From Deltaproteobacteria bacterium (GTDB lineage: Bacteria > Desulfobacterota > Desulfuromonadia > Desulfuromonadales > Geopsychrobacteraceae), in contig JAJRQB010000083.1 in assembly GCA_024280485.1 (NCBI GenBank), positions 1 to 47,627 of the forward strand: 47,627 nucleotides of DNA. Direction: 5' to 3'. The notes beneath the pieces are model-generated. The model saw only the letters and a program-made list of their open reading frames with translations, was not told where the DNA came from and did no database searches. Below, piece after piece: positions 36,859-43,786 of this stretch. Position 1 is the stretch's first letter. Every line of letters starts with the position of its first letter. Position numbers and translations under genes: made by a program.

Positions 36859-36891
36859 CAGACTTTTTGTTGCCTGATAGAGGTATTGAAC

Positions 36892-38784
36892 ATGAGTAAA
36901 CTCCTCACAAATCAAACGTCCCCGGCTGATCTTAAATCGATGGATCTTCCGCAACTAAAACAATTGGCTGGAGAACTGCGCGAGACCATCATATCAACTG
37001 TTGCAAAAAACGGCGGTCATCTCGGTAGTTCATTGGGGGTCGTTGAGCTGACCATCGCTATTCACAAGGTCTTCAATTCTCCTCAAGACCGTGTTATCTG
37101 GGATGTTGGGCACCAAGCCTATGGTCATAAACTGCTCACAGGACGTCTTGATAGTTTTAAGACTTTGCGTCAGCTCGATGGGCTCAGTGGATTCCCTAAG
37201 CGTAAAGAGAGTGAGCACGACGCTTTCGATGTCGGACATTCGAGCACATCGATTTCAGCCGCGCTAGGTATGAGCGCCGGGATCGATATCCAGCAGGGGG
37301 ACGAGCGGGTCATTGCGGTGATCGGTGATGGTTCTTTGACCGCCGGAATGGCCTTTGAGGCCTTGAATCATGCCGGTCATCTCAAGAAGAATCTGATCGT
37401 GATTCTTAATGACAATGAGATGTCGATCTCACCCAATGTCGGAGCGATCTCCTCTTTTTTGAGTCGCAAGATGTCGAGCGATCTTTTTTTACGCTTCAAA
37501 AAAGAGACTGAAAACCTTCTCAACCATGTTCCTGGCTTTGGAAAGGATCTGGTCAATCTGGCCAAACGTGCCGAGGAATCACTCAAGGGGTTTATCACTC
37601 CGGGGATGTTGTTCGAAGCTTTCGGCTTTGACTATTTCGGCCCGTTAGATGGGCACAACCTGCTGGAAATGATCGAAACTCTGAAGAACGTACGAAACAT
37701 CAAGGGTCCGGTGTTACTGCATGTTGGTACTCGCAAGGGGAAAGGTTATGCCCCGGCAGAAGCTGATCCGACTACATTTCATGGTGTCGGCCCCTTTGAT
37801 CGTGAAACCGGCAAAGTGCCTGCGGCAAAACCTGGGCCTGCCAGTTATACAAGTGTCTTTGGTCAGACCTTGGTCGAGATGGCAAAAACCGACGAGCGGA
37901 TCGTTGCAATTTCTGCGGCTATGCCTGCTGGCACCGGGCTCTGTGGCTTTGCCGAAGAATTCCCTGATCGTTTCTTTGATGTCGGTATCGCCGAACAGCA
38001 TGCCGTGACCTTCGCTGCCGGGTTGGCATGTCGCGGATTACGCCCGGTGGTGGCGCTCTATTCGACGTTTTTGCAACGCGCCTATGACAACCTGCTGCAT
38101 GATGTCTGCCTGCAAAACCTGCCGGTTAGCTTTGCCCTTGATCGTGGCGGCCTGGTCGGGGCGGATGGCCCAACCCATCACGGTGTTTTTGACCTTTCAT
38201 TTCTGCGTCATGTCCCCAACCTGGTGCTGATGGCGCCGCGCAACGAGTTAGAGTTAAAACGGGCGATGAAGACCGCGCTTGAATTTGATGGTCCCTTTGC
38301 TTATCGCTACCCGCGTGGGAATGGTGAAGGTTTGTCGCTTGCACAGCCGGTTGAAGTTTTGCCGATTGGTAAAGGCGAGATTCTGCGTGAAGGAAAAGAT
38401 GCTGCAATCATCGCCGTAGGGACTATGGTTGCCGAGGCAATGAGCGCTGCTGATACTCTTGCTCGACAGGGGATCGAACTGTTGGTTGCCGATGCGCGCT
38501 TTATTAAGCCACTCGACGCTGAGATGATTCTTGATATTGCCGGACGGGTACCATTGCTGCTGACAGGCGAAGAGAATGTCCTGCAAGGCGGATTTGGTTC
38601 GGCAGTTCTTGAACTTCTAGCTGACAATGGGCTCAATTTGCCGGTGATCCGTATCGGTATTCCCGATCATTTTGTCGAACAGGGGACTCAGGCTGAGCTG
38701 CGAGAGCGTATTGAGATCGATGCCGCGGCGATTGTCAGAAGAATCAGCACGGCACTTGAACATAAAAGCAGGTCTCAAGTGTGA
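36892..38784 (+). CDS. dxs: 1-Deoxy-D-xylulose-5-phosphate synthase
   Basis: The product is 630 residues from ATG 36892, with AGAGGT 7 bases upstream. It condenses pyruvate and glyceraldehyde-3-phosphate with thiamine diphosphate, the first step of the MEP isoprenoid pathway that feeds IspA. Visible signatures are [32 protein letters not shown], the ThDP motif [18 protein letters not shown]...NDNEMSIS (from residue 145), the transketolase-type [17 protein letters not shown] containing the catalytic Glu, and [16 protein letters not shown] terminator follows within 30 bases, ending the xseA-xseB-ispA-dxs cluster. Confidence 0.97.
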
Positions 38785-38811: not shown

Positions 38812-38842
38812 AAGGGCCATCCATCACCGGATGGCCCTTTTT
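38812..38842 (+). terminator. Intrinsic terminator of dxs
   Basis: A perfect 11-bp stem AAGGGCCATCC/GGATGGCCCTT (38812-38822 and 38829-38839) has a 6-base loop and a T run to 38842. Confidence 0.9.
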
Positions 38843-38908
38843 GTTAAACCCTGAATCCGTTCTATTCCAGGTTTGCTATAGTTGAGAACAATCAAAAGGA
38901 GGATTTCG

Positions 38909-40135
38909 ATGAAAACGATAGCTGTTAAATTTACCAACAAACATGGTGAAGTCCTGGCGGGCCGGCTCGATCTCCCCGAGGATGAGCGGCCGCTTGCATA
39001 TGCCCTGTTTGCCCACTGTTTCACCTGCGGTAAAAATCTTAAAGCGATTACCCATATCGGCCGCGCATTAACCGCTGAAAAGCTGGCAGTTCTGCGTTTC
39101 GATTTTTCCGGGGTTGGTGAGAGTGAAGGCGACTTTTCAAAGAGTCATTTCACCTCCAACGTTGAAGATCTGCTCAGCGCTGCGGACTGGCTTGCAACAG
39201 AGTATCAGTCGCCACAGTTGTTGATCGGACACTCATTTGGCGGGGCCGCTGTCCTGCAGGCAGCGCAGCAGATAGAAGGTGTTCGAGCAGTAGCCACTCT
39301 GGCCGCTCCCTACGATCCTAATCATGTGCGCCATCTGTTTAGTCAGGAGCTTGAGAATATCGAAGCCAATGGGGAAGCCGAAGTCTCCATCGCCGGGCGG
39401 AGTTTTAACATCGGTCGGGGTTTTCTCGATGATCTGGATGCTCAGCGAGTTGAAGCGCGACTAATTGATCTTAAGGCGGCGTTGCTGGTACTGCACTCAC
39501 CGCTCGATAAGATCGTCGGTATCGAAAATGCCGCACAGATCTATCGCGCAGCCAAACATCCTAAATCTTTCGTCGGCCTGGATGAGGCGGATCATCTGCT
39601 CAGCAATGAAGAGGATGCTCGCTATGCCGGGAGTATGATCGCAGCCTGGGCCTGTCGTTATCTGCAGGTTGAAAAAAAGCCTGGTATTGAGACTGAGGTT
39701 ATCGATAACCGGGTGACGGTGCGGACCGGCAATCAGGGGTTTTATACCGAACTCTTCGCCAATGGTCATGCTCTGGTGGCCGATGAGCCGAAAAACTATG
39801 GTGGCACAGATTTGGGTCCTTCACCCTACGAGTATCTGCTCAGCGCTTTGGGGGCCTGTACTACGATGACTGTGCAGATGTACGCGCAGCGCAAGAAATG
39901 GCCGCTTGATTCAGCGGTTGTGCGATTGAGTCATCAAAAGATTCATGCTGTTGATTGTCAATCCTGTGAAGAGCAGGGGGGGAAGATCGACCGTTTTGAA
40001 CGCGAGCTTGAATTGCAGGGTGATTTGAATGACGAATAACGTCAACGTCTGCTCGAAATAGCTGAACGCTGTCCGGTTCATCGCACTTTGCACGCAACGG
40101 TCGAGGTGGTCACTCGGCTTAAGGAGTTGTCTTAG
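38909..40135 (+). pseudogene. Alpha/beta-hydrolase-OsmC fusion with an in-frame stop
   Basis: The start ATG 38909 has AAAGGAGG about 6 bases upstream. Residues 1-255 form an alpha/beta-hydrolase: FAHCFTCGKNL, FDFSGVGESEG, the nucleophile elbow GHSFGG, and an acid/His end including DEADHLL. Residues 265-376 form an OsmC/Ohr-like domain, with the first catalytic cysteine in SALGACTTMT. Translation stops at TAA (40037-40039) after LNDE. The same frame continues for 31 codons: [20 protein letters not shown], then a terminal strand, ending at TAG 40133-40135. That tail is the usual OsmC C-terminus, with the second catalytic cysteine (40070-40072). One C-to-T change from CAA would explain it. Unless the stop is read through or is an error, the OsmC half lacks one catalytic Cys. 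Confidence 0.85.
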
Positions 40136-40751
40136 GACTAAAGCTCAGTGACTCGAACAAAGTGCTGATCTGCGCACTGAGTTCGGCTTTTTCCGGGTAA
40201 CTGGTGGCGTAGATGAAGAACCATTCCCCCGGTATATAACCGATCAGCCCTGAGAAAACGGTTTGGCTGCCGTGCTGTTTATAGTTGGCCGTAATACGAT
40301 TGGTATCTGGAGCACCGGCCAGGTTCAATACCTGTTGGTCCTTTTGTAACTCGCTGATCCCCTCTTCATTTCCTAGGGATTCAAGGGCAAAGCGCGCCGA
40401 GAGTTCCAGTGTTTTTGTGGTGGGGGGGCTCTCCTTTGTGCGCAATGGACTGAAATCGATGCTGATCCAAGCTCCACTCTGTGGGTGGTATAGCAGTTGT
40501 TCATTTGCTTCCATACGTTTTGCTGCCGCCTGAAGTAATTGTTGTTGCGTTGGAGTTTGTCCCCTTTCGGTCGCTTCGTGACCGATGTGTAGGGCTATCT
40601 CCGCCAGCAGTTCGTCCGGTGTCTCTGCGGGTACCAGCCAACCAGAGGGCAGCTGCCAGTCAAGTTTGTTGGCGGCAGGAGTTATCAGGCTTGCTGACTG
40701 CGCATAACCTGCGTTCAGCAGCATGAGTAGACCCCAAAATAGATATTTCAA
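40119..40751 (-). CDS. Conserved secreted protein of unknown function, coupled to znuA
   Basis: The product is 210 residues. The frame extends to 40814, but TTG 40751 is the likely start: GGAGGT lies 6 bases upstream, and the TTGA overlaps the znuA stop. From there a signal peptide begins ([20 protein letters not shown], cleaved near residue 18). The mature domain has alternating strands and helices without a family I recognise: [10 protein letters not shown], an ISIDFSPL strand and [16 protein letters not shown]. No cysteine or histidine cluster for metal binding is apparent. Tight coupling to znuA suggests a periplasmic protein expressed with zinc uptake. It converges on the OsmC fusion, overlapping its extended frame by 17 bases. 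Confidence 0.8.
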
Positions 40752-41662
40752 TCCGGCACCTCCCCGAGGCAATTGTTCAGATTTTCTGCCAATTTCTCCA
40801 TCAGTATAAACCAACTATCATCACCTTGGTCAATAGCGCTGCCGAGCGGATCAAGCTCTCCAAGCTTTAAACCACTGTCTTTTGCCAGCGATGCTGCAAG
40901 CGCGGGGCTGAATTGCGGTTCGCTGAAAAGACAAACTGCCAAACTTTCAGAAACCTTGGTCGTGATCTGCTGTAATCTTCGTGCTCCAGGGGCGCGTTCG
41001 GCTGAAATTCGAACTGAACCGATAGCATTTAAGGAAAAAGCGTCTTCAAAGTAGGGATAAGCATCATGAAAAACCAGGTAGGGTCGAGTTCGGATCGGAG
41101 TCAGTAGATAGCTTAGAGACTGCTCAAGGAGATCAACACGTCGCTGCAGGTCTTCTTCATTTTGTCTGTAAATGGCAGTGTTTTTTGGATCGAGCTGGAT
41201 CAGACGTTGACTGATGCTAGAGACGATGTGCCGAGCATTGTCAGGAGATAGCCAGATGTGTGGGTTGATACTTTGTTTATCATGTGAGTTTTTGTCTGCG
41301 TGTTGATCTTCCTCCCAAAAACCACCATGTCGTTGAGATAGAAGTTTCAGTCCTTCAAGTTTCAGCAGTTGCATTTCAGCGTTTGGTTGAACCAGGCGGC
41401 CGACAGGGACAGTTAAAAAACTTTCCAGTTCCGGTCCGACCCAGATCAAGAGATCTGCCGCGGCAAGAGCGCGGGCCTGAGACGGGCGCAGGCTAGAACT
41501 ATGCGGACTTCCACCTTGTCGAAGCAGCAGCTTTGGCTCACTTACCCCCTTTGTGAGCAGGCTGACCAGTGAATGGATAGGGGCGATACTGACCACAATC
41601 TTCGGCGCGGCAAAGCAGGGGGAAGCGAGAAGGAACAGAAAAATGGTCAATGATATGCGCAT
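40748..41662 (-). CDS. znuA: Zinc ABC transporter substrate-binding protein
   Basis: The product is 304 residues from ATG 41662; the frame runs to 41776 but that stretch crosses the Zur box. A signal peptide (MRISLTIFLFLLASPCFA) is followed by the cluster-A-I metal-binding fold. Likely ligands are the His in SIAPIHSL, the His in NPHIWLSP, the His in LVFHDAYPYF and the Asp in GELDPLGS. A short His/Asp/Glu-rich loop (HGGFWEEDQHADKNSHD) precedes NPHIW, as in zinc-specific ZnuA proteins. It delivers zinc to ZnuBC, encoded divergently from the other side of the palindrome. It is the first gene of a two-gene operon. Confidence 0.93.
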   Translation of the reverse strand: MRISLTIFLFLLASPCFAAPKIVVSIAPIHSLVSLLTKGVSEPKLLLRQGGSPHSSSLRPSQARALAAADLLIWVGPELESFLTVPVGRLVQPNAEMQLLKLEGLKLLSQRHGGFWEEDQHADKNSHDKQSINPHIWLSPDNARHIVSSISQRLIQLDPKNTAIYRQNEEDLQRRVDLLEQSLSYLLTPIRTRPYLVFHDAYPYFEDAFSLNAIGSVRISAERAPGARRLQQITTKVSESLAVCLFSEPQFSPALAASLAKDSGLKLGELDPLGSAIDQGDDSWFILMEKLAENLNNCLGEVPD

Positions 41663-41711
41663 ATGAGGGTCCAAGGTTAAATGGGTGGGACAAACTCGTT
41701 TATTTTGTGTA

Positions 41712-41728
41712 ATGTTATAATATAACAT
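41712..41728. promoter_or_regulatory. Zur box (perfect 17-bp palindrome)
   Basis: ATGTTATAATATAACAT is a perfect palindrome about a central A at 41720. It closely resembles the TGTTATA-N-TATAACA zinc-uptake-regulator consensus. It lies in the 79-bp gap between znuA (start 41662, minus) and zur (start 41742, plus). One site can therefore repress both directions when zinc is plentiful and let zur regulate itself. Confidence 0.9.
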
Positions 41729-41741
41729 CAAAATAGCGGAG

Positions 41742-42242
41742 ATGAATAAAACAATGCAAGACCCATTCGTGTGCACTCCAGTTTCTCACCATCACTGCAT
41801 TAGCAGCGCCCTGGATAAGGCCGAAACACTCTGTCGGTCGCGGAATGTCAGGTTGACACCGATCCGTCACAGGGTTCTGGAGCTGATTTGGCAACAACAT
41901 CGACCGGTTGGTGCATATGATCTTCTTGAACAGTTGCAACAACAGGGACGGGTCGCTCCACCGACGGTTTATCGCGCGCTCGATTTTCTTCAGCAGCAGG
42001 GATTGATCCATCGACTGGAGTCACTCAATGCTTTTGTCGGCTGTGCTCATCCACAGCATCCGCATCAAGGACAGTTTTTGATCTGCAAGTCCTGTCGTAG
42101 CCTCGTTGAAATTACTGACCCTGAGATCAGCACTGTCATCAATAACCGTGCAGAAGCTGTCGGTTTCAAGCCGCTGAATCAGACTGTTGAGGTTTCAGGT
42201 TTTTGTGCTGGATGCTGGCAGAAGGAGCAGACAAATGGCTGA
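41742..42242 (+). CDS. zur: Fur-family zinc-uptake regulator
   Basis: The product is 166 residues. ATG 41742 is used; ATG 41754 is possible because GGAG lies directly against the first ATG. A winged-helix DNA-binding domain (about 25-95, RLTPIRHRVLELIW and APPTVYRALDFLQQQGLIHRL) precedes a dimerisation domain with the structural zinc cysteines CKSC and CAGC and a His-rich FVGCAHPQHPHQGQF. The Fur family senses zinc, iron, manganese or peroxide. The znuA/znuCB context and the palindrome identify this one as Zur. It runs straight into znuC with an 8-base overlap. Confidence 0.93.
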   Translation: MNKTMQDPFVCTPVSHHHCISSALDKAETLCRSRNVRLTPIRHRVLELIWQQHRPVGAYDLLEQLQQQGRVAPPTVYRALDFLQQQGLIHRLESLNAFVGCAHPQHPHQGQFLICKSCRSLVEITDPEISTVINNRAEAVGFKPLNQTVEVSGFCAGCWQKEQTNG

Positions 42243-43005
42243 TCCGCTTCTTGTCTTAAATGATATCTGCCTGGTGCGTAATCGTCGACATATCCTTGAA
42301 AATGTCAGTTGTCATATTAATCCTGCTGAAATTCTGACCCTGATCGGTCCGAATGGAGCCGGCAAAACCAGTTTGCTGAAGGTTGCTCTCGGTTTGATGA
42401 AAGCTGACAGTGGCAAGGTCGTACGCAGTGAAAATCTACGTATTGGTTATATGCCGCAAAAACTGATCATTGATCGCACCTTTCCTTTAAGTGTTGCGCG
42501 TTTTATGCGCTTGACTGGACATTATTCGGAGATGCAGATGCAACAGGCTCTCGATGAAGTTGGGGCCGGGCGGATGCTTAATGCCAGCTTGGCCAATCTC
42601 TCGGGTGGCGAGTTGCAACGTGTTCTGCTGGGGCGGGCTCTGTTACGACGCCCCCAACTGTTGGTGCTCGATGAGCCGGTGCAGGGTGTCGATGTGCAGG
42701 GGCAAGTTGAACTATTTAAATTGATCGGTCGATTACGTGATAATTTCGGTTGTGCGGTGCTGATGGTTTCTCATGATCTGCACCTGGTGATGGCGGCCAC
42801 CGACCGGGTTATCTGTCTGAACCAGCATATCTGTTGTACTGGTACTCCTGCGGCTGTGCAGCGTGACGAGCAATTTCTCAAGCTGTTCGGCCCGGCGATT
42901 CTGCCGCATCTGGCGGTCTATAGTCACGATGTGCAACACCAGCATGGTAGCTGCCCGAATCAGGGCTGCAGTTGTCCGCTCGGAGAGGGGGGAGCTGATG
43001 TTTGA
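42235..43005 (+). CDS. znuC: Zinc ABC transporter ATP-binding protein
   Basis: The product is 256 residues from ATG 42235, with AGGAG 7 bases upstream; it overlaps zur by eight bases. Walker A GPNGAGKTS, Q-loop YMPQ, signature LSGGELQR, Walker B LLVLDEPVQGVD and the switch His MVSHDLHL are all intact. The C-terminal tail carries a His/Cys-rich stretch (HDVQHQHGSCPNQGCSCP) that could bind zinc, a feature seen in some ZnuC proteins. It energises zinc import through ZnuB. The znuB start overlaps its end by 8 bases. Confidence 0.95.
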   Translation: MADPLLVLNDICLVRNRRHILENVSCHINPAEILTLIGPNGAGKTSLLKVALGLMKADSGKVVRSENLRIGYMPQKLIIDRTFPLSVARFMRLTGHYSEMQMQQALDEVGAGRMLNASLANLSGGELQRVLLGRALLRRPQLLVLDEPVQGVDVQGQVELFKLIGRLRDNFGCAVLMVSHDLHLVMAATDRVICLNQHICCTGTPAAVQRDEQFLKLFGPAILPHLAVYSHDVQHQHGSCPNQGCSCPLGEGGADV

Positions 43006-43786
43006 TGATTTTATGCTCCGCGCCCTGATCGCCGGATGTGGCGTTGCTCTGGTCGCCGGTCCTTTTGGAACCTTTGTCGTCTGGCGCCGGATGGCCTACT
43101 TTGGTGACACCCTCGCTCATTCGGCGCTGCTCGGTGTTGCTCTTGGTTTTCTGCTAGAGGTTGATCCGATGCTGGCGGTGATGCTGGTCTGCTTGCTCGT
43201 GGCATTACTGCTCTTTTTTCTACAGCGTCAGCAACGGCTCCCCTCCGATACTCTGCTCGGTATTTTGTCACACAGTACCCTGTCTCTGGGTTTGGTCACG
43301 ATCGCCTTTATGGAGGAGTTGCGGATTGATCTGCTCGCTTATCTGTTTGGCGATATTCTTGCGGTTGGGCGTAGCGATATCTTGATGATCTATATCAGTG
43401 CACTTATTGCCCTTGGCATGTTGATGTATCTTTGGCGCCCTTTGTTGGCAATTACTTTGCACGAAGATCTTGCACGGGTCGAAGGGGTGCGTGTTGATCT
43501 GGTACAATTGTCATTCTCCTGCTTGTTGGCACTGGTGGTTGCGATTATGATGAAGGTTGTTGGTTTGTTGCTGATTACTTCACTCTTTATTCTGCCAGCA
43601 GCAGCGGTTCGGCGGCTGTCTCGTTCACCAGAACAGATGGCCGTACTTGCCGCCCTGGCCGGGGTTGTCTCGGTCAGCGGTGGACTTTACGGATCCTGGC
43701 AATTTGATACTCCGGCGGGACCATCTATCGTGGTTGCTGCGACCTTGCTCTTTACATTTCTGCAACTCTTTCCTGCTCGGCAATAA
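42998..43786 (+). CDS. znuB: Zinc ABC transporter permease
   Basis: The product is 262 residues from ATG 42998; GGGGGGAG lies 3-4 bases upstream, and earlier starts in the frame fall inside znuC. Seven to eight hydrophobic segments are visible. Family ABC-3 signatures are GPFGTFVVWRRMAYFGDTLAHSALLGVALG, the LIAYLFGDILAV-type loop, the LITSLFILPAAAVRRL segment and a C-terminal GPSIVVAATLLF. It forms the zinc channel with ZnuC. The zur-znuC-znuB gene order with overlaps implies one transcript under the Zur box. Confidence 0.95.
   Translation: MFDDFMLRALIAGCGVALVAGPFGTFVVWRRMAYFGDTLAHSALLGVALGFLLEVDPMLAVMLVCLLVALLLFFLQRQQRLPSDTLLGILSHSTLSLGLVTIAFMEELRIDLLAYLFGDILAVGRSDILMIYISALIALGMLMYLWRPLLAITLHEDLARVEGVRVDLVQLSFSCLLALVVAIMMKVVGLLLITSLFILPAAAVRRLSRSPEQMAVLAALAGVVSVSGGLYGSWQFDTPAGPSIVVAATLLFTFLQLFPARQ

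Follow-up and report, generated by a model that had tools for sequence, protein, structure and literature searches.

EstO of Pseudoalteromonas arctica and EstRM of Rhodothermus marinus represent a published family of carboxyl esterases that carry an OsmC domain at their C-terminus. In the sections of the family paper on which we draw (PMC5113044), OsmC is spoken of as present in all members and its role in these esterases is called enigmatic. The same sections report that the full-length R. marinus enzyme showed no detectable peroxidase activity, that forms devoid of OsmC are active esterases performing better on some substrates, and that OsmC-free EstRM is active and stable in vitro, its esterase domain having been crystallised (PDB 5cml). 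They also describe the active site of Escherichia coli OsmC as formed by its two cysteines, and name a second, less conserved GxSxG motif (Ser72 in EstRM) as a family feature. Among the matches listed in a search of the OsmC-esterase literature, PMC5113044 was the one paper on the EstO/EstRM family, and no title or abstract opening mentioned OsmC loss in this family.

A gene assigned to this family on the basis of its sequence is located in the window, i.e. the whole stretch of DNA analysed here, a contig of 47,627 bases (C95) from a 4.14 Mb assembly comprising 178 contigs, with an estimated completeness of 96.11% and an estimated contamination of 3.25%. The open frame of this gene is closed by a TAA codon within its OsmC half, and the features of the locus are the following.

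38897 to 38902, forward strand: AGGAGG, a candidate ribosome-binding-like sequence read by eye, with the ATG at 38909 positioned 6 bases downstream.
38909 to 40039, forward strand: the standing open frame of 376 aa, esterase plus OsmC fragment (from the frame and Pfam).
38909 to 39673, forward strand: the esterase (alpha/beta hydrolase) half, residues 1-255 (from Pfam and the alignment).
39674 to 40036, forward strand: the retained OsmC part, residues 256-376, with Cys317 and a CXXC pair (350, 353).
40037 to 40039, forward strand: the in-frame TAA, residue 377 counted from the ATG at 38909 (from the sequence and the homologue comparison).
40040 to 40135, forward strand: what is left of the OsmC C-terminus after the TAA, 31 codons and a TAG, with Cys388 and the last strand.

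The border between the two domains was placed from EstRM residue 255 (PMC5113044), and an alternative start, a TTG at 38882 upstream of the ATG, would yield a product of 385 aa. The gene is found downstream of a dxs gene (36886-38784), after which a hairpin followed by a T run (38814-38842) has, by eye, the appearance of a terminator; the esterase gene is therefore probably served by its own promoter. At its other end it meets a convergent ORF (40119-40814) with no Pfam match. Positions 40748-43786 hold a zinc-uptake-like cluster, composed of a ZnuA-type binding protein on the reverse strand and a Fur-family regulator, an ABC ATPase and an ABC-3 permease on the forward strand.

A sequence-only reading of this DNA had proposed a hydrolase-OsmC fusion, and both domains are indeed matched in Pfam, the first as an alpha/beta hydrolase (Hydrolase_4, 60.8 bits). 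The alignment of full-length homologues comprises 98 sequences; rows were excluded if they contained a stop or an unknown residue, started late, ended early or exceeded 460 residues, and two of the excluded rows correspond to one gene of genome G065, in which the stop is located elsewhere. Ser109, Asp200 and His229 are invariant in all 98 homologues and in the window. The GxSxG motif reads GHSFG (residues 107-111), a second GxSxG is found upstream as GESEG (residues 70-74; Ser72 in 98/98 homologues), and the N-terminal cysteines Cys37 and Cys40 are present and nearly invariant across the alignment. The second conserved OsmC cysteine, Cys388, is likewise found in every aligned homologue. In the window, the complete two-cysteine OsmC domain typical of the family is lacking from the product, as the frame ends at residue 376 and Cys388 falls beyond the TAA; the same holds for the two catalytic cysteines of OsmC/Ohr proteins (PF02566), the second of which comes after the stop. 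By descent the gene is an EstO/EstRM member, and its product would be a truncated one.

The codons around the stop read GAT TTG AAT GAC GAA TAA CGT CAA CGT, and the same frame continues past the TAA until a TAG at 40133-40135. Of the residues encoded in this tail, 30/31 are identical to those of the nearest relative, and the Pfam OsmC score increases from 42.2 bits for the truncated form (profile positions 1-64 of 100) to 66.6 bits once Gln is substituted for the TAA (1-98), both values exceeding the curated PF02566 cut-off of 27.5 bits. The match to the relative and the rise in score indicate that the frame beyond the stop is not due to chance. The sequence-only reading had described this tail of 31 codons and a TAG, which is directly visible in the sequence, and had recognized in it the OsmC C-terminus with the second catalytic cysteine, in agreement with the conservation of Cys388 and the read-through score. 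It was equally right that a truncated product retains the hydrolase and the first OsmC cysteine (Cys317) and loses the second.

At residue 377, 113 homologous loci encode 108 Gln, 2 Glu, 1 Lys, 1 Leu and 1 Asp, and 0/113 carry a stop, some genes being counted twice as they occur in two collections. These loci were fetched with a match at E 1e-40 covering the codon and were left unfiltered for stops; the window, three loci that are its own copies and a second copy (L083) of the L005 gene were kept out. Among the 98 aligned homologues, Gln is found at this position in 93, and an initial, broader set of 90 loci (restricted to the plus strand and including remote OsmC paralogues) holds CAA in 57, CAG in 24 and other sense codons in 9. 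The nearest relative is the sister L005, 96% identical, and L005, L003 and L004 all read CAA. By gene, the nearest named relatives are metagenome-assembled genomes of Deltaproteobacteria bacterium Dive100_bin3.49 (L005; G007 holds the same gene) and of Geopsychrobacter sp. (L003, L004). With Gln in nearly all relatives and CAA in these three loci, one change on the window's own branch suffices to account for the stop. The sequence-only reading had suggested looking up this residue in relatives and had attributed the TAA to a single C-to-T change from CAA (Gln); both the CAA of the sister and the predominance of Gln, with no stop among the relatives, support that view.

Compared with L005, the gene shows a dN/dS of 0.095 before the stop and 0.109 after it (Nei-Gojobori, own script), the latter value resting on as few as 4.5 synonymous and 1.5 nonsynonymous changes. 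When changes were polarised by two outgroups (L003 and L004), the first 406 codons of the window branch were found to have accumulated 14 synonymous changes, 2 nonsynonymous changes and 1 stop change, with 34 changes unplaceable; the esterase half accounts for 7 of the synonymous and both nonsynonymous ones. The tail thus bears no mark of decay, so that the stop must be recent, erroneous or read through, three cases between which this observation does not discriminate.

Within the class, 75/277 genomes hold a match at E 1e-40. By our own count, 63 of these matches cover nearly the full span without a stop, 5 comprise the esterase half only (G012, G019, G023, G026 and G051), 3 are partial (G099, G209 and G255) and 4 are disrupted (the window genome, G065 with a TAG at codon 98, and G129 and G060 with frameshifts). 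In G065 (L128/L183) this TAG is the single in-frame stop of a fusion gene otherwise open to its end. Decayed or frameshifted esterase-OsmC copies were observed at L101 (G052), L178 (G129), L179 (G060) and L186 (G061), the copy of G061 being a decayed second one beside an intact gene and that of G052 a decayed remnant spread over several frames.

Six rows lack OsmC altogether: L180 (G026), L181 (G019), L182 (G012) and L184 (G023) from genus g5, which belongs to the same family as the window genome, L185 (G051), and L080 from Candidatus Megaira. The enzymes are 256-258 aa long in genus g5 and 269 aa long in G051; these natural OsmC-less forms end right after the esterase domain and not within OsmC. 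No OsmC match at E 1e-3 was obtained in the OsmC-less loci of g5 and G051, and the motif CPV[HN][RK] is absent from the DNA fetched behind the four g5 esterase genes and that of G051; in g5 this DNA resembles, in our reading, a dxs gene lying on the opposite strand. On a tree built from 105 esterase halves, well-supported branches force the six rows to take three separate changes, and the g5 clade is grouped with fusion genes from its own family. The tree was midpoint-rooted for drawing only, and the three changes might amount to one gain and two losses; we interpret all three as losses, since fusion genes surround every OsmC-less row or clade. The esterases of g5 are constrained (dN 0.063-0.134, with dS above 1 or saturated). 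An esterase without OsmC is hence workable in this family, so that a truncated esterase that still works is plausible in the window. The sequence-only reading had mentioned neither that the family was already described, nor that its OsmC-less versions are active, nor that some relatives are devoid of OsmC.

The best explanation as a whole, to which we assign a probability of about 0.5, is a recent nonsense change resulting in a 376-residue protein with an active esterase and a broken OsmC part. A conserved Gln codon would have been converted to TAA by one recent change on the window's own branch, the ribosome would halt at this TAA, and the released 376-residue protein would contain a complete and most likely active esterase domain. 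Its OsmC part, deprived of the last helix, the second catalytic cysteine and the final beta strand, would be incapable of two-cysteine OsmC chemistry and would probably be misfolded or trimmed. In a structure model built from 71 aligned sequences (the window and 70/98 homologues; pLDDT 86, pTM 0.83), the stop falls within a predicted helix (375-385), a further helix (389-392, after Cys388) and a strand (398-404) are removed, and Cys317 is retained in helix 306-328. The stop leaves the esterase domain (residues 1-255) intact. What remains of OsmC is expected to be inactive, since both cysteines form the active site of E. coli OsmC, and the truncated esterase probably still works, given the active published OsmC-free forms and the natural OsmC-less homologues. 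Counting against this explanation, a partial OsmC left dangling could make the product unstable. The TAA and its setting are a real feature of the sequence, and we infer that the base is also real in the organism and that the protein is made. Among the three options that the sequence-only reading had left side by side, a recent nonsense mutation, here in a known enzyme family, fits best and is the most likely; a base error persists as the main rival, and readthrough gained no specific support.

The strongest competitor, less probable than the nonsense change but a serious one, is a sequencing, consensus or binning error, in which case the gene would be intact in the cell and the TAA absent from the organism. 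That tail and body evolve alike is expected if nothing is broken, and the assembly is divided into 178 contigs with the above level of estimated contamination. We compared two contigs with the sister, namely the window from 10,077 on (aligned 10,077-47,487) and contig C77, using those sister ORFs of 100 aa or longer that had a match (71 ORFs, 24,189 codons; the ORFs are mechanical and not annotated genes). Out of 69 ORF pairs that could be lined up, 66 share the same end and three differ: the esterase-OsmC gene, an 804-aa gene of C77, and a gene in which the sister copy is 5 residues shorter. The conserved 804-aa gene is split, relative to sister G007, by a one-base deletion at about 25,650 of C77 (about 5,650 of L204), and no Pfam match was obtained for its first piece of 335 aa. 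Such a deletion in another conserved gene of the same assembly makes assembly errors conceivable. Against an error stands the fact that the esterase-OsmC gene is the sole C-terminal truncation through substitution to a stop among the 69 pairs on the two contigs, and the other gene ends on the window contig agree with the sister wherever aligned; moreover, assembly errors more usually take the form of indels than of substitutions. The remaining stops in the assembly's own DNA are at residues 3, 4 and 13, before the likely true start, or in a 125-aa ORF. The latter, a sister ORF with two stops on C77, was rejected as a gene, as in our reading it is the frame shadow of a PII-like gene, and it has no Pfam family. 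A noisy contig was also considered and discarded: in the reverse comparison, the sister shows internal stops at residues 7, 16, 22 and 25 of window ORFs, again before the likely true start. Where compared, the assembly is mostly clean, with one further lesion of the kind that errors often make.

It is unlikely, though less so than readthrough, that the gene is being lost in its entirety, esterase included, with a real stop and an unstable truncated protein. Broken copies do occur in the class (G065, G129, G060, the second copy of G061 and the remnant of G052), and 202/277 class genomes, many of them incomplete, have no match at E 1e-40. Conversely, the esterase half displays no sign of relaxed selection on the window branch (7 synonymous and 2 nonsynonymous changes), although a recent stop would leave no such sign, and the OsmC-free form of EstRM proved stable and active in vitro (PMC5113044).

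Programmed or tolerated readthrough, in which ribosomes would insert an amino acid at the TAA at a rate sufficient for functional full-length protein, is very improbable: the tail does read as constrained protein, but a recent stop explains this equally well, the codon is a sense codon in the sister and a stop at none of the 113 loci, and in E. coli TAA leaks less than the other stops (PMC11126739). In the reporter data of that source (Fig. 2; rich medium), TAA was the most accurate stop, with a mean relative signal of 0.01-0.05 percent. In the window genome, TAA ends 24/66 ORFs with a C-terminus agreeing with the sister, 22 of these 24 being TAA in the sister too, which rules out a reassigned TAA; neither a stop conserved among relatives nor a reassigned code, the marks of recoding, was found. 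No UAA-reading suppressor was present among 42 tRNAs (150/194 candidates scored; the list is without Tyr, Trp and Ile-GAT tRNAs), and an ordinary TAA together with no suppressor in this incomplete list makes readthrough unlikely. Folding of the 100 nt that begin at the stop is no stronger than that of shuffled sequences (z 0.73; 154/200 shuffles fold at least as well), and inspection by eye close behind the TAA revealed no in-frame start codon (ATG, GTG or TTG) accompanied by a ribosome-binding-like sequence for a translation restart. TGA counts in G052 and the NCBIfam name OsmC_like_Se had pointed to a selenocysteine in the OsmC half; this was dismissed, as the G052 locus is a decayed multi-frame remnant and the window codon is TAA.

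Returning to the nonsense change, the stop codon in itself would be an everyday mutation or error, and it is of mild interest because some relatives have no OsmC at all. We tentatively suggest that the OsmC half might be a dispensable add-on, shed repeatedly with the esterase kept, and that the window might display the first step of a further shedding. If this were true, the OsmC tail would still be legible behind a fresh stop in a strain relying on the esterase alone. Natural lineages with esterase but no OsmC, and possibly this strain with its newly cut OsmC, offer ready comparisons for the contribution of OsmC.

With EstO and EstRM the window gene shares the order of the domains, the Ser109/Ser72 numbering and the motifs, as well as Asp200 and His229, the two N-terminal cysteines, and OsmC cysteines encoded at 317 and 388; unlike in these enzymes, the protein is ended by the TAA at residue 376, before the second OsmC cysteine. 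Among solved structures, 9wo1_A and 5cml_A are the best relatives by sequence. The former, a 400-aa chain entitled 'Osmotically inducible protein C', matches residues 10-404 of the read-through form (418.5 bits) and is intact, unlike the window product. The latter, the esterase domain of R. marinus Rmar_1206, matches residues 5-252 (305.6 bits) and is also the best fold match of our model, all 50 matches listed in the fold search being, by title, to the hydrolase half; 5cml was cut by design at the domain border, whereas the stop of the window is about 120 residues further on. Finally, the OsmC-less genes of g5, G051 and Candidatus Megaira encode an esterase half homologous to that of the window and lack the whole of OsmC, not just its end. 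In these relatives OsmC is cleanly absent, whereas the product of the window would carry a broken one.
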